Below the pieces are notes generated by a model that had not been told where the DNA came from, searched no databases, and saw only the letters and a program-made list of their open reading frames with translations. A stretch of 64,000 bases of DNA from a virus. Position 1 is the stretch's first letter. Each line of letters opens with the position of its first letter. The translations under genes and the position numbers were made by a program. Positions 26,643 through 63,516 of the stretch are shown in pieces. The DNA lies in IMG/VR virus record IMGVR_UViG_3300042523_000478, positions 27,987-91,986 of that record, one strand, 5' to 3'.

Positions 26643-28643
26643 ATGGCTATTGATATTGAGGAAGGTTATGAATCTATTGGTAGTTCTATAACCAAGAATA
26701 AAACGTATAAACAAATATCTTTAGATTATAAAAAACTAAAAAAGAAAGCGGGTAGTTCTTATGAAAAAAATAAGAAGAAGATAACCCAAACTCTTGATAG
26801 TGCAAAAAAGAAAAAACAAAAATATCAAAAAAGCGCAAACAGTCAGATAGATAATTTAATGAAACTTAAATTAGATTCTGGAGATAATTTACCATCAAAA
26901 GATGATTTAATGGGGGGTAGCTTTAAAAAGTTAAAAGATTCAAAATATAATAAAATACCCGGACTTAAAATAAAAGGTAAAAATAGCACACAAAAATATA
27001 TAATTAATAAATTTGTAACTGCGCTTAATGAGTTAAAACCTAAAATTCTTGAGTTAATAGAACAAGAAATTTTAAATGCTGCGGGTTGTTCCCAAGACCA
27101 AACATACACACCAAACCAAGATTTATATTTAAAAGTTAAATCTATTGATTTATTAGGTCAGTTAATGGTTGACCCTAATAATAATGTTGGTCAAATAATT
27201 TATGAAGATAAAACTCTTTCTTATCCTGGAAGTCCGTTTGCAATGAATAAAGAATTGTATAATAGGATTCAAAATATTAACCAACCATTTTCCGTTCAAT
27301 ATTCTTCAAACTACCAAGGAAAATCAGGACAAAATTTATTTGATATAACTTATGTTGAGAATTACATTGACCCATTTGGTAATAACGTTACTGGTAACTT
27401 TTATAAAGTTAATTTATCTAACAGATTAACAGGAAACAAAATAAAAGAATTTTTAAAAGATTATTACTCAACGATTGAGGTTATTGATTTTAAAAATATT
27501 TTTGCTAATTTAATGAATCAACTAACTGGAGCCGTATCCATTGAAAAAGGTGATGGTAAGTCCGATCTTGAGTCACTACAAAAAGTGTTTATACTCCTAC
27601 AAAGAATAATGGGGTTATGTTATGATAACACTAAAGAGATTGATGTTTCTGGTACCGCAAAAGTTTCTGAAAACGATAATATTGACGATTCTTTTTTTGA
27701 ATTTACCGAAATTGATTTAAATTTTATTGACCAAAATGTTTCGGATATTATTAATGGTGTTGCAACGTTTGAAGAATGTGATAATGTACAATTACCAATT
27801 AATAGTACCGCAATTGTAAACTCAATTAATAATTTGGTTTTTGTTCCTGGAACAAATAATAATAACACCCTTGAGGATGCAACAAATATAACTGACACAA
27901 TAACTAAAAATCCAGATTGGGTACCATTACAAATAAATTTAGATGCATCTTTTATTAAAGAATTTCCCAAATCAGTCGTTTTGTCTTTATTATCACCAAA
28001 AACATTATTACCTCTTGGTATTGTATTAAAGGCGTTAAATCAAAATGTAATGGATGAAGTATTTTCATACGTTGATTTTATAAAAAAATTAAAAACATTT
28101 TTCACTAGTGTTGTTTCTAAAATAGGTGCAATTTTTATTAAAATTATTTTTGATTCTATTAAAGAAGACATAAAAGAATTATTACAAACAATCACTACCG
28201 ATATTGGAAATGAAAAAGTTAATAAAAAATTATCAATAATATTGGCATTAACTCAAATAATATTGGCAATTGCTAAATTGGTTAAAGATTTTAGAGAATG
28301 TAAAAGTGTAATAGATGATTTACAAAATTTATTAAAATTAGCATCTAAAGGTTTTGGGAATCAAGTTCCTCTACCTTTGTTATTAGCATCAAGATTTTTA
28401 AGTGGATTTTCATCAACCAGAGCATTTTTAAATGTTATTGAGGAATTTGAAAAGTTAGGTATTCCTACAGGACCTATGTCGGATGGGTCACCAAATAAAT
28501 TTATGGCATCAATTAAGGCGGTTATTGATGGGATTGATAAAGAAGAATCACAAAATGGTCAAGTACAGGTGGCGGTTGATTTATTGTCAATCACACCTAT
28601 TGGTCAAACAATCCCTAAAGTAGTGTTCGGTAAAAAATTATAA
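26643..28643 (+). CDS. Large baseplate-region structural protein
   Basis: 666 residues. A Lys-rich coiled N-terminus (1-110) is followed by a folded middle region. A C-terminal third rich in long hydrophobic helices follows (for example LLSPKTLLPLGIVLKAL, then SIILALTQIILAIAKLV at about 540-556), which could be buried helices or membrane-active segments. It precedes the OB-fold baseplate protein in the same operon, so a baseplate or tail-tip role is inferred. The family is not recognised. Confidence 0.55.
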   Translation: MAIDIEEGYESIGSSITKNKTYKQISLDYKKLKKKAGSSYEKNKKKITQTLDSAKKKKQKYQKSANSQIDNLMKLKLDSGDNLPSKDDLMGGSFKKLKDSKYNKIPGLKIKGKNSTQKYIINKFVTALNELKPKILELIEQEILNAAGCSQDQTYTPNQDLYLKVKSIDLLGQLMVDPNNNVGQIIYEDKTLSYPGSPFAMNKELYNRIQNINQPFSVQYSSNYQGKSGQNLFDITYVENYIDPFGNNVTGNFYKVNLSNRLTGNKIKEFLKDYYSTIEVIDFKNIFANLMNQLTGAVSIEKGDGKSDLESLQKVFILLQRIMGLCYDNTKEIDVSGTAKVSENDNIDDSFFEFTEIDLNFIDQNVSDIINGVATFEECDNVQLPINSTAIVNSINNLVFVPGTNNNNTLEDATNITDTITKNPDWVPLQINLDASFIKEFPKSVVLSLLSPKTLLPLGIVLKALNQNVMDEVFSYVDFIKKLKTFFTSVVSKIGAIFIKIIFDSIKEDIKELLQTITTDIGNEKVNKKLSIILALTQIILAIAKLVKDFRECKSVIDDLQNLLKLASKGFGNQVPLPLLLASRFLSGFSSTRAFLNVIEEFEKLGIPTGPMSDGSPNKFMASIKAVIDGIDKEESQNGQVQVAVDLLSITPIGQTIPKVVFGKKL

Positions 28644-50741: not shown

Positions 50742-52796
50742 ATGATAGAATTTATTGATGAGGGAGATAAAAATAAAAAAAAACCTGAAGGGGGTGGAAC
50801 ACCAGTTTTAGATAATTTTAGTAAAGATTTAATTAAACTTGCAAGTCAAGGAAAATTAGACACAGTGATTGGTCGTGAAAAAGAGATTTTAAGAATTGCC
50901 CAAGTATTGTCAAGAAGGAAAAAAAATAACCCCATCATTATTGGAGAACCTGGAGCGGGTAAAACGGCAATAGTTGAGGGTCTTGCAATGATGATACATA
51001 ATGGGGATTGTCCTAAAAATTTATCCGAAAAAAGAATTGTTTCGTTAGACATTAATTCAGTTGTTGCTGGTACAAAATATAGAGGTCAATTTGAAGAGAG
51101 AATGAAGGTGATTATTGAAGAGATACAAAGTAACCCAGATATAATTATTTTTATAGATGAGGTACACACAATGGTTGGTGCGGGTAATAGTTCAGGGTCA
51201 TTAGATGCATCAAATATATTCAAACCAGCATTATCTCGTGGTGAAATACAATGTATTGGGGCCACAACATTAGACGAATACCGTAAACATTTTGAAAAGG
51301 ACGGAGCTCTTGAAAGAAGGTTTCAAAAAATAATTGTAGACCCTTCAACAAAAGAAGAAACATTAGAAATTTTAAAACAAAGTAAGGGTAAATACGAAGA
51401 ACACCATAATGTGAATTATAGTGATGAGTCATTACGTTTATGTGTAGAATTGGCAGATAGATATATAACAGACCGAGAATTTCCAGATAAGGCGTTTGAT
51501 ATCTTAGATGAGGTCGGTTCAAGAATGCAAATAGATATTAAACTCCCAGAACATATTGAAAAATTAAAACAGATATCTCAAGATATAAAAAGGGAAAAGG
51601 CTGAGGTTATTAAAAAACAAAACTATGAGTTAGCGGCAGAACTTAGAGATAGGGAAAAAAATATATTAACACAATTAGAGGCTGGAAAAAGAAAATTTGA
51701 GGAAGAACTTAAAAATAGTAAAAGACATATTCCAGAAGATTTAATTTATGAAGTTGTGTCTAATATGACTAAAATTCCTGTAAGTAAAATTAATATTGAT
51801 GAAAAAAATTCATTAGTTAGTCTTGAAAAGACTTTAAATTCTACGGTTATTGGTCAAGAGGATGCGGTTGGAAAAATATCAAAATCAATTAGAAGAAATA
51901 GAGTTGGTATTAAAGATCCTAATAGACCTATTGGGTCATTTATTTTCTTGGGGTCAACCGGTGTTGGTAAAACGTTTTTGGCTAAAAGATTGGCTAAAGA
52001 AATTTTTGGTAATGAAGATAGTTTAATTAGAGTTGATATGTCTGAATACCAAGAAAAACACACCATCTCTAGATTAATTGGGTCACCTCCAGGATACGTT
52101 GGTCACGAAGAAGGTGGACAACTTACAGAACAAGTTAAAAACAAACCATATTCGGTTATTTTATTTGATGAAATTGAAAAAGCAAATAAAGACATATTTT
52201 CAACATTACTCCAGATGTTAGATGATGGACATATGACTGATGGTCTTGGTAGAAAAATCAATTTTAAAAATTGTTTAATAATTATGACATCAAACATTGG
52301 GGTTAGAAAAGTTCAAGAGTTTGGTGGAGGAATGGGATTTAAAACAAACAATACAAGTGAGGAAGTTCTTGAGGAACATAAAAGAGACATTATTAAAAAG
52401 GAATTAAGTAAGTTTTTTGCTCCTGAATTTTTAAATAGAATTGATGATGTAATTATCTTTAATTCACTTAAAAAAGAACATGTGGATAAAATAGTTAAAC
52501 TTGAGATCGATATCCTTATTAAAAGATTAAAATCAATGAGATATAATTTTACATATGAAGAATCTGTTGTTACGATCATATCTAAGGTGGGGTTTGATGA
52601 AACATACGGAGCAAGACCAATTAAAAGGGCAATCCAAAATAAGATTGAAGATTTAATTTCAGAAAAAATACTTCTTAGTGAAGTTGTTGAGGGTACCGAA
52701 TATATGTTACTTGTAAAAGAGGGTGAGGAGATTGTAATTGAAGACCACACAATTCAGGAACCAAAGAAACGAGGTAGAAAGAAAAAGGAGGATTAA
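50742..52796 (+). CDS. ClpC-like double AAA+ unfoldase lacking the N-domain
   Basis: 684 residues. First AAA+: Walker A GEPGAGKT at 68-75 and Walker B IIIFIDEVH at 134-142. A UVR-like helical segment follows (QNYELAAELRDREK at about 293-306). Second AAA+: Walker A GSTGVGKT at 404-411, VILFDEIEKAN, and the conserved GARPIKRAIQ in the C-domain. MGF at 531-533 sits where ClpC/ClpA carry the ClpP-docking tripeptide (VGF/IGL), so docking to host ClpP is plausible. The usual N-terminal Clp_N repeats are absent and replaced by about 25 disordered residues, implying altered substrate recruitment. Confidence 0.88.
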   Translation: MIEFIDEGDKNKKKPEGGGTPVLDNFSKDLIKLASQGKLDTVIGREKEILRIAQVLSRRKKNNPIIIGEPGAGKTAIVEGLAMMIHNGDCPKNLSEKRIVSLDINSVVAGTKYRGQFEERMKVIIEEIQSNPDIIIFIDEVHTMVGAGNSSGSLDASNIFKPALSRGEIQCIGATTLDEYRKHFEKDGALERRFQKIIVDPSTKEETLEILKQSKGKYEEHHNVNYSDESLRLCVELADRYITDREFPDKAFDILDEVGSRMQIDIKLPEHIEKLKQISQDIKREKAEVIKKQNYELAAELRDREKNILTQLEAGKRKFEEELKNSKRHIPEDLIYEVVSNMTKIPVSKINIDEKNSLVSLEKTLNSTVIGQEDAVGKISKSIRRNRVGIKDPNRPIGSFIFLGSTGVGKTFLAKRLAKEIFGNEDSLIRVDMSEYQEKHTISRLIGSPPGYVGHEEGGQLTEQVKNKPYSVILFDEIEKANKDIFSTLLQMLDDGHMTDGLGRKINFKNCLIIMTSNIGVRKVQEFGGGMGFKTNNTSEEVLEEHKRDIIKKELSKFFAPEFLNRIDDVIIFNSLKKEHVDKIVKLEIDILIKRLKSMRYNFTYEESVVTIISKVGFDETYGARPIKRAIQNKIEDLISEKILLSEVVEGTEYMLLVKEGEEIVIEDHTIQEPKKRGRKKKED

Positions 52797-53622: not shown

Positions 53623-54408
53623 TTAATGTTTGGTGTAACCTAAATTTTCAATCATTAACTTACCAACCTTAATTCCGTTATAGGTATCCTCAACAACAAC
53701 ATACTCATTTCTTGTATGATAGTTGTAATATCCAATGGAGATATTAAAACAAGACAGACCAAAGTTTTTATTTAGTGGGTATATGTCAGTATATGGGTGC
53801 CTATGATATTTTGTATCTCCAGGAAAATGTTCCGTTATCAAACTACCCCCAACGTTAAAGAATTCACTATCTCTATTAAACATTGGTCTGTTCATTAGAA
53901 ATTCTGAAATCATATTGTTTTCTGGAGCGTCGAATTGAATTACGTACCCGACATTAGTGAAGAATTCAGGATCCGCATTAAACGAACCTTTACATCCTGT
54001 TTCCTCAGCAACAAAAAATGCCGCTTTAAGGTTCGGTAATTCATTTAAAAGTTCCAAACAACCATACACACCACACTTATCATCACCGCCAATACCGGTT
54101 GGTTCGCCATCATTATTGTAAGCCTTTAAAGAAAGTTTAATTTCTTTCTGGGCATTAGGTAATTGTTCTTCAACAACATTGATTGAATCAATTGTATGTA
54201 CGGTATCCGTATGTGCAACCACACAAGGAAAATAATCAATATTCTCATCAGTTTGTTTTGTGGCGTAGATATTGTAAAATTGGTCAACGTAGAAGGGGAT
54301 TTTATTTTCCTCCAACCAAGTTGTTATAAAATCAATCATCAAATCTTCTTGATAAGTTTTTGTGGGAACAGATAAAACCTGTTTTAATAACTCAAAATTT
54401 CTTTCCAT
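53623..54408 (-). CDS. M20-type zinc peptidase-like protein
   Basis: 261 residues. VVAHTDTVHTI at about 63-73 gives the first metal His and Asp. GIGGDDKCGVYGCLELL at about 105-121 contains the bridging Asp. FFVAEETGCKGS at about 131-142 has the catalytic Glu pair. YNYHTRNEYVVVED near the C-terminus has the last metal His. This order matches the peptidase T/M20 di-zinc exopeptidases, but it is shorter because the dimerisation domain is reduced. It may free amino acids from peptides, for example degradation products. A TATATTTG -7 element lies just upstream. Confidence 0.78.
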   Translation of the reverse strand: MERNFELLKQVLSVPTKTYQEDLMIDFITTWLEENKIPFYVDQFYNIYATKQTDENIDYFPCVVAHTDTVHTIDSINVVEEQLPNAQKEIKLSLKAYNNDGEPTGIGGDDKCGVYGCLELLNELPNLKAAFFVAEETGCKGSFNADPEFFTNVGYVIQFDAPENNMISEFLMNRPMFNRDSEFFNVGGSLITEHFPGDTKYHRHPYTDIYPLNKNFGLSCFNISIGYYNYHTRNEYVVVEDTYNGIKVGKLMIENLGYTKH

Positions 54409-55524: not shown

Positions 55525-55546
55525 ATAAAATAAATATCAAAAAATT

Positions 55547-55576
55547 TTGATTATTGTAATTTTACATTTATATTTG
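55547..55576 (+). promoter_or_regulatory. Host-type promoter of the tmRNA
   Basis: TTG at 55547-55549, 19-nt spacer, TATATTTG at 55569-55576. The expected start is about 25 nt before the mature tmRNA 5' end. A TATTTATA late-type motif (55577-55584) directly follows, so the gene may be served by both polymerase forms. Confidence 0.7.
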
Positions 55577-55607: not shown

Positions 55608-56007
55608 GGGGGTGTTTTTGGATTTGACAGGTATTGGCTGAAGACAAAGGGCACGTGGAGACTGAATTAATCTCCTTAAAAACTGATTCACAAAAACAAT
55701 CGGCGACGTTTTATCGAAAATGGAAACTCTTGGTTTACTAAGAGGTTCTGAAGTTACTGTAGCCTAATAGGTTTACGGAAACGGGGGGTCGGTCAGACAG
55801 ATAACCTAGCAACAGAAGTCGTTGATGAGTTTGTTTTCACTCTAAAAGAAGACAAAACGGGCGTGGTTCCCCGTAAGAACTACCACCGTCGCTGAGTGGT
55901 GTGAGAACTCAGATATTTCGGAAGGTATAACAAACCTTGACCTAAACGTGTAGTCCTTCTCTGACAGGATATTATGGACCGGAGTTCGAGCCTCCGCACC
56001 TCCACCA
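55608..56007 (+). ncRNA. ssrA: tmRNA (one-piece) with atypical tag
   Basis: 400 nt. The 5' GGGGGUG pairs with 3' CACCUCC over 7 bp, followed by A and an encoded CCA. Near the 5' end UUUUUGGAUUUGACAGG is the tmRNA D-arm consensus, and CGGAG-UUCGAGC-CUCCG is the T arm. ACAAUC precedes the resume codon GGC at 55702. The tag frame runs 21 codons to GCC at 55762-55764, then UAA UAG. The tag begins GDVLSK and ends GSEVTVA, not the common ALAA. tmRNA with SmpB frees stalled ribosomes and tags the product for ClpXP or ClpAP. Its own promoter and terminator flank it. Confidence 0.93.
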
Positions 56008-56341: not shown

Positions 56342-57256
56342 AAATAAAAACCTGAGATTACAGTTTTTTTTAAGTGTCTTTCGAGTCATTATTGGTTCTA
56401 CTCTTATCCACAGGATTTTGTCCCGTAACACTCATTACCGATTGGTTAGACCAATCACCCCTTGACGATACAACTACTCTCTTACTACTCCTGTCTCCCC
56501 AAGATTGCGTCCTGGTTCGGTCTTCGACGACCTAGAGATTTTTCATAAAAATACGGTCAAACTTGCGGTTATCACGTTCCACTGACAGCCAGTGAATAGG
56601 TGGGTAACTTCCGTTATATCGTAACGAACACTTTTGCTTTTTAGTTATAAGTTTTACCTTTTCTATAAAAGTTTTTGTGTTGTGGATTGATCAAAGTTGT
56701 GGTCCGTCTTAAGCTTCATTATCTTTTGAATAACAAAATACCAAACAACTCCGTGAAATGTCCCCATTTCAATATTTCAAGACTACTTCGAAACTAACCC
56801 CTTGGTAGAAGTTGGTTAAGGTCAATAACGGCACCACCCGTACATTAACATACCTTTCGGTTTTAAGTATCCTATGATACTGGAACCCGCAATAACAACA
56901 TTGGAAATATTGATTCATGCAACGTCCCTACGAGTTATTCCTATTAGAGTTCCCTCCTCAACAAGATGACCCACATCACCTCGTCATAAAATCACTTTCC
57001 CTACACCGTTGGCCTCGGTACTAAAGATTTTATGGTATCTCGCCTGTGTACTCGACCTCAATATTCCGAAGACTATTAAGACGCAAACCCGTTACACTTG
57101 GGGGTCACTTTATCCTACTTTCGTAGTTTATTTTATGGACTATACACGGCCCAATATCTTTATCAGTTTCACTCTTAAACCCGAAGGTTCTTAAGATAAT
57201 CCTGAACGGATAATATCTAAAATTTCAAAGAACTTTATCGGACGTTTCCGATTTGT
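56342..57256 (-). ncRNA. Large ornate structured RNA, about 915 nt, no ORF
   Basis: All frames are broken by stops, and base composition is less AT-rich than the flanks. On the minus strand many stable hairpins are evident: CTTAA-ga-ACC/UUCG-capped at 57174-57195; CUAC-GAAA-GUAG at 57115-57126; a 7-bp stem with UUCG at 57057-57080; AGTATC/GATACT at 56866-56881; ACC-GAAA-GGT at 56852-56861; TGAAATG-GGGA-CATTTCA at 56754-56771; CACTG/CAGTG at 56580-56594; GATTGGT/ACCAATC at 56440-56456; ACGGGA/TCCTGT at 56410-56426. It starts just after a host-type promoter and ends near a weak hairpin with a U run. Size, phage context and closeness to tmRNA and tRNAs recall GOLLD/ROOL-type giant RNAs; identity unproven. 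Confidence 0.8.
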
Positions 57257-63386: not shown

Positions 63387-63442
63387 ACAATTTGTAAAAT
63401 ATTTTTTATTTTTTTTAAGGTTGTTTTTTTGCCCTTAAAGAG

Positions 63443-63516
63443 CACACAAGGTGGGACTCGAACTTACAAAATCGGGCATCTAAACCCTCCGTGACTACCA
63501 ATTCTACCACTCGTGT
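63443..63516 (-). tRNA. Degenerate tRNA, possibly Leu (TAG)
   Basis: 74 nt. Acceptor ACACGAG/CTTGTGT is sound. The T stem GTAAG/CCCAC has two A-C mismatches, and the anticodon arm GGG-TTTAGATG-CCC has an 8-nt loop or a 6-nt loop with GGGT/GCCC. It lacks the long variable arm of Leu tRNAs and has G73. May be a pseudogene or need editing. It lies upstream of the array promoter. Confidence 0.45.

Follow-up and report, generated by a model that had tools for sequence, protein, structure and literature searches.

A viral tmRNA gene was predicted, from the letters of the DNA alone, in a stretch of 64,000 nucleotides of IMG/VR record IMGVR_UViG_3300042523_000478 (positions 27,987 to 91,986; hereafter the window). 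Its tag was read as 21 residues ending in TVA rather than ALAA. Two questions arise at this locus: whether the long tag is genuinely encoded, and what becomes of the proteins that receive it in the infected cell.

The tmRNA gene and its tag frame

The following features were located in the tmRNA region.
55608–56007, plus strand: tmRNA (ssrA) gene with an encoded CCA end, 400 nt, matched by Rfam RF00023
55608–55614, plus strand: 5′ strand of the acceptor stem, GGGGGUG, whose G3 pairs with U70 (alanine identity)
55698, plus strand: A at −4 from the resume codon, invariant in the alignment and corresponding to E. coli A86
55702–55764, plus strand: tag reading frame of 21 codons, GDVLSKMETLGLLRGSEVTVA, supported by the sequence, 140 related tags and the selection ratio
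55765–55770, plus strand: tag stop codons UAA (55765–55767) and UAG (55768–55770)
55997–56007, plus strand: 3′ strand of the acceptor stem, CACCUCC, with A73 and CCA, from the Rfam match and relatives

The identity of the gene was borne out by the RF00023 covariance model, which matched 55608–56007 on the plus strand over its full length (model 1–374 of 374) with 100.9 bits (gathering threshold 47; E = 3e-38). The alignment ran end to end, and its posterior was 0.62 overall and low in the middle. ARAGORN made no tmRNA call on the window copy and called the close relative L011. Of 55 distinct full-length relatives, 52 had the G3-U70 pair and 51 had A73; the deviating copies probably have misplaced ends. 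Across relatives the acceptor stem was compensated, occurring as GGGGGTG/CACCTCC, GGGGATG/CATCTCC, GGGTCCG/CGGATCC and GGGGGTA/TACCTCC. The family fold computed with RNAalifold, which considers nested pairs only, contained 45 consensus pairs, 28 of them with changes on both sides. The folding energy of the whole tmRNA was not below that of shuffled sequences (z −0.47), a measure that is uninformative for pseudoknotted RNA. One relative (L060 628–840, minus strand) carries a tmRNA of 213 nt, in which most of the tag and the middle region are deleted and the tRNA-like ends are retained; its tag frame is broken after GNVLDNLSVVGLN.

The resume codon GGC (55702–55704), the frame of 21 codons and the stops UAA UAG agreed in coordinates and sequence with the original prediction, and the long, non-ALAA tag ending in TVA is seen directly in the window. 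No other frame gave an ALAA-like tag. When 30 full-length tmRNAs were aligned, GGC, the A at −4 and the UAA of the tag proved invariant. In E. coli tmRNA the frame begins 4 nt downstream of A86, which sets it (PMC2481249). The tag of L011 as printed by ARAGORN, GNVLDKMETLGLVRESEVTVA, has the same frame and length as that of the window, and the resume offset of the window tmRNA is shared by seven GENNYALAA tmRNAs on other contigs of the same viral collection (95–97). Similar tags were then compared by simply counting their single changes as synonymous or non-synonymous. The resulting selection ratio was 0.19 for frame 0, against 1.1 and 2.7 for the two alternatives, indicating purifying selection in frame 0 only; variation among tag codons was least at second positions and most at third. 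Shifting the start by +1 base gave 12 codons, ATFYRKWKLLVY, and shifting it by −1 base gave 16 codons; neither end is ALAA-like and neither is conserved. Together, the frame-0 selection, the invariant GGC, UAA and A at −4, and the shared resume offset leave practically no room for a different tag frame. That the frame is incidental and its conservation due to RNA structure in the mRNA-like region is scarcely credible, since a hairpin does lie mid-frame in several sequence types but the frame test rules out structure as the source of the conservation, and the constant length, the invariant stop and the codon-position pattern also speak against it.

The retained elements for alanine charging and frame setting make trans-translation very likely, with SmpB supplied by the host. 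SmpB was not found in any of the 22 phage records. Ribosome rescue, the first half of the pathway originally predicted, is supported as a reading by the conservation of these tmRNA elements.

The tag in related phages and the probable host

Relatives were collected by scanning IMG/VR viral contigs with patterns for the 3′ end and the 5′ end, which turned up about 90 loci belonging to this family. More divergent tmRNAs, located downstream of relatives of the phage Clp gene described below, were added, and the two routes overlapped in some contigs. In total 140 tags were read, comprising 64 distinct DNA sequences and 47 distinct peptides. All 140 have 21–22 residues and an initial G, properties that were part of the reading rule. 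In the family scan, nearly all intact copies fitted this start and length, the exceptions being L060 with its broken frame, fragments cut off within the tag, and a few matches to the pattern that represent something other than this tmRNA. Among the tags are GNVLNKMEAIGLIRTSEVTVA, GNVLDNLSVVGLIATEQVTVA, GNVLDKMATIGLIREEAAVVA, GKTFAKLSAIGLIREESVVAA, GETFAKLQAVGLLRTEEVAVA and GNVLDKMALLGLVKQDELVAVA, with GDVFANATVGHFVTEGATVAA as an outlier.

Positions 1, 6, 11, 12, 18, 20 and 21 were among the most conserved. Among the 47 peptides the last residue was A in 44, S in two and I in one, and the penultimate residue was V in 39. The ending mostly took the form xVA, with VAA in five peptides and LAA in none; EVTVS, EVSVA, AVVA, VVAA and others also occurred. 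The internal part, K[ML]xx[LI]GL[IVL]R, was conserved as much as the end. Taken with the codon-change counts, these sequence comparisons showed that the peptide of the tag itself is under selection, over its full length. The original emphasis on the TVA ending thus holds for the window and does not extend to the relatives, whose endings vary, and the conservation of the full tag across a large phage family had been missed.

A nucleotide search of cultured phages with the window tmRNA gave no match. Marinobacter, the sole match of the 5′ pattern in a scan of the genome collection, was rejected, because ARAGORN found no tmRNA there. Neither tag-like C-termini nor the tag motif were found in other proteins of the same phage.

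The virus is T4-like, with a gp20 portal and a gp23 capsid, and among cultured phages the closest in its terminase is Flavobacterium phage immuto, at only 27% identity. A promoter-like site precedes the tmRNA.
55546–55576, plus strand: Bacteroidota-type promoter-like site upstream of the tmRNA, TTTG-N19-TATATTTG

The number of such sites in the window was not above chance. Among distinct relatives, the Bacteroidota −7 element TANNTTTG was located upstream of the tmRNA in 77 of 87, against 12% expected from shuffles. A Shine-Dalgarno-like site preceded 2 of 49 genes in the window, and the start regions were A-rich. Judging from the few Shine-Dalgarno sites, the A-rich starts, the −7 element and the distant terminase match, the host is probably a Bacteroidota bacterium. 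The comparison with Bacteroidota tags made in the original prediction is hence plausible, given the seven GENNYALAA tmRNAs in the same viral collection and the upstream motifs.

The Clp and peptidase genes near the tmRNA

The phage Clp-like ATPase mentioned in the original prediction was identified as a ClpC-type unfoldase encoded near the tmRNA, and a peptidase gene was found between the two.
50742–52796, plus strand: phage ClpC-type AAA+ unfoldase, 684 aa, with two ATPase domains and no N-domain
52332–52340, plus strand: tripeptide MGF of the ClpP-docking loop, residues 531–533 of the phage ClpC, aligned to VGF of B. subtilis ClpC
53623–54408, minus strand: PepT-like (M20, clan MH) peptidase, 261 aa, a candidate downstream peptidase

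Pfam recognized the domains AAA, AAA_2 and ClpB_D2-small in the unfoldase. Its best PDB match was ClpC 6em8 (E = 1.6e-214), and the alignment begins at ClpC residue 148, so that the phage protein is without the N-terminal adaptor-binding domain. ClpC-type unfoldases usually depend on adaptors, and loops of the ClpP-docking type dock into ClpP (PMC8138137). The docking loop was present as [MIV]GF in all 97 phage Clp copies with a readable region. A phage Clp was found in 19 of 21 tmRNA-bearing records, usually with the tmRNA 2–5 kb downstream of it; the count leaves out L056 with its different tmRNA type. Two tmRNA-bearing records, G006 and G008, have ClpP and no ClpC was found in them; they may be fragments. 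Phage ClpP occurred in 4 of 22 records, G005, G006, G008 and G021 (the records of L080, L133, L166 and L153), scoring 190–195 bits to PF00574. As a separate observation, the clpC genes of L325 1–4101 and L326 1–4001, from the relatives G001 and G004, carry an insertion within the Walker A motif (GEPG|CGKT). The insert reads as an atypically split intein: its N-part has about 25 residues, an endonuclease-like frame stands free, and its C-part ends in SHN before Cys.

The AlphaFold2 model of the peptidase had a pLDDT of 95, and its best Foldseek match was PepT 3gb0 (E = 1.5e-13). The motifs HTDTVH, GGDDKCG, EETG and HTxxE, which are metal-ligand motifs of clan MH, were conserved. With 261 residues the protein falls short of full-length PepT, which has about 370–410 residues and an extra (lid) domain; the TM-score normalised by target was about 0.5.

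The arrangement of these genes was highly constant. Among Clp loci having at least 5.5 kb downstream, 47 of 48 had a tmRNA there. The peptidase adjoined Clp in 48 of 48 loci; in several relatives it lies directly after clp on the same strand, 75–103 bases apart. The block as a whole is syntenic, as the peptidase (48/48) and the terminase TerL (60/62) show, and the tmRNA, the ClpC core and the peptidase are core genes of this phage family. The Clp–tmRNA linkage was rejected as special evidence of a partnership, because the entire block is syntenic. Co-variation of tag and Clp beyond phage phylogeny was not detected (partial r 0.08, a value equalled or exceeded in 105 of 500 shuffles and hence not significant; n = 27), and tag distances tracked terminase distances more closely than Clp distances. 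In view of the synteny and of this result, conservation of the linkage is not in itself a demonstration that the tag is read by Clp.

Two further RNA genes were noted. A complete GOLLD RNA (287.7 bits) lies at 56349–56753 of the window on the minus strand, tail to tail with the tmRNA. Of 31 related records, 16 have GOLLD, which in several lies within 0.1–3 kb of the tmRNA; two phages of 635–642 kb with a Clp relative of 56–57% have GOLLD and no tmRNA within 12 kb. ARAGORN also called a tRNA-like gene at 63442–63516 (minus strand) with the anticodon TTA, which would read the stop UAA. This gene may be spurious, as it is absent from the Rfam matches at threshold.

Proposed fate of the tagged proteins

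Alanine charging, SmpB-assisted entry and template switching are general tmRNA behaviour and are to be expected here from the conserved elements. In the reading that we favour, and consider moderately probable, the phage carries a tag-and-degrade module for amino-acid recycling, built on a functional tmRNA. A host synthetase would charge the phage tmRNA with alanine, and the tmRNA, together with host SmpB, would enter stalled ribosomes, so that the stalled chains receive A + GDVLSKMETLGLLRGSEVTVA. The 21-residue peptide is most likely a degron, as suggested by its small hydrophobic end and by the neighbouring genes. Tagged proteins would be unfolded by the phage ClpC core or by host ClpX/ClpC and cut by ClpP, either that of the host or, in some relatives, that of the phage, and the PepT-like peptidase would trim the resulting peptides. 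The outcome in the infected cell would be that ribosomes are freed, truncated chains cleared, and amino acids returned to phage synthesis. Amino-acid recycling has been proposed for a phage tmRNA, that of Melnitz (PMC9004378).

That the phage ClpC core is the reader of the tag is a further step, suggested by analogy: in vitro, ClpC1 of M. tuberculosis that has been deprived of its N-domain still unfolds ssrA-tagged protein, at a rate close to that of the full protein (PMC6274998). Degradation by another route, one of the outcomes raised in the original prediction, is possible given the phage ClpC core and its conserved ClpP-docking loop. Our most specific proposal is a tentative one, in which the system is private: the N-domain-less phage ClpC would read the 21-residue degron directly or preferentially, working with host or phage ClpP and the PepT-like peptidase, host ssrA adaptors would be bypassed, and amino acids would be recycled from truncated host and phage proteins.

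It is also conceivable, and in our judgement rather unlikely, that the tmRNA only adds ribosome-rescue capacity, with host ClpXP or other host proteases destroying the tagged proteins and the phage Clp and peptidase being unrelated. The end of the tag, Ala after hydrophobic beta-branched residues, resembles ssrA-type C-degrons, and the synteny of the block and the lack of co-variation between tag and Clp fit this explanation. However, it accounts neither for the strong selection on all 21 residues, including K[ML]xx[LI]GL[IVL]R, nor for the difference of the tag from GENNYALAA. Still less probable is a protective or diverting tag, whose products would be spared or sent elsewhere, for example to a site of assembly or sequestration. 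Binding of a partner by a long conserved peptide is conceivable, and the absence of LAA from all 47 peptides, five of which end in VAA, would suit this idea, but the ending remains small, hydrophobic and degron-like, and a ClpP-docking unfoldase and a peptidase adjoin the tmRNA. The ssrA variant ending in LVA is degraded in E. coli, which is a further argument against sparing. The suggestion that tagged proteins are spared is consequently less likely than degradation by a partly private route, for which the selected small hydrophobic end and the adjoining ClpC core and PepT-like peptidase argue.

The phage tmRNA resembles bacterial tmRNA (RF00023, GENNYALAA type) in its tRNA-like domain with G3-U70, A73 and CCA, its A at −4, its resume codon with initial G at about position 95, its UAA stop and its length of 380–420 nt. 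It differs in the tag, which has 21–22 residues instead of 9, a conserved internal motif, and a VxVA-like end instead of ALAA. Phage tmRNAs are already known, with 10 listed in an earlier account (PMC4131195) and 79 sequences in a 2025 database (PMC11915505), and that of Wildcat is highly expressed (PMC7474061). Like the tmRNAs of the mycobacteriophages Bxz1 and Wildcat, Bacillus phage G, Melnitz and marine myophages, the present one is phage-borne and presumed to use host SmpB; unlike them, it consists of one piece, and the T4-like family that carries it has a 21-residue tag in common and encodes a ClpC core and a PepT-like peptidase of its own. Further long tags from viruses in our analysis end in LAA or VAA and do not have the internal motif. 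In the open-access literature that could be searched, we found neither a phage family described as sharing a selected 21-residue tag that ends in VxVA, nor any mention of the association of that tag with a phage ClpC core and peptidase. The unfoldase itself shares two AAA+ domains, pore loops and the docking loop [MIV]GF with ClpC/ClpA and differs from them in having no N-domain, the binding place of adaptors. In Mesoplasma florum, a long non-LAA ssrA tag is read by Lon, indicating that a switch of protease is possible (PMC8138137, PMC9382460). Common to the two cases are a long tag that does not end in LAA and a lineage with a protease arrangement of its own. The Mesoplasma tag belongs to a bacterial genome that has lost ClpXP, whereas the present tag is viral and a phage ClpC-type unfoldase is the candidate for reading it.

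The selection seen across 47 versions of a single long tag indicates that the peptide, beyond ribosome release, matters to these phages, and the phage unfoldase near the tmRNA provides a concrete candidate reader for it. If this reading is true, the pair would be a viral counterpart of the tag and protease of Mesoplasma, and the tag may serve as an orthogonal degron for laboratory use.
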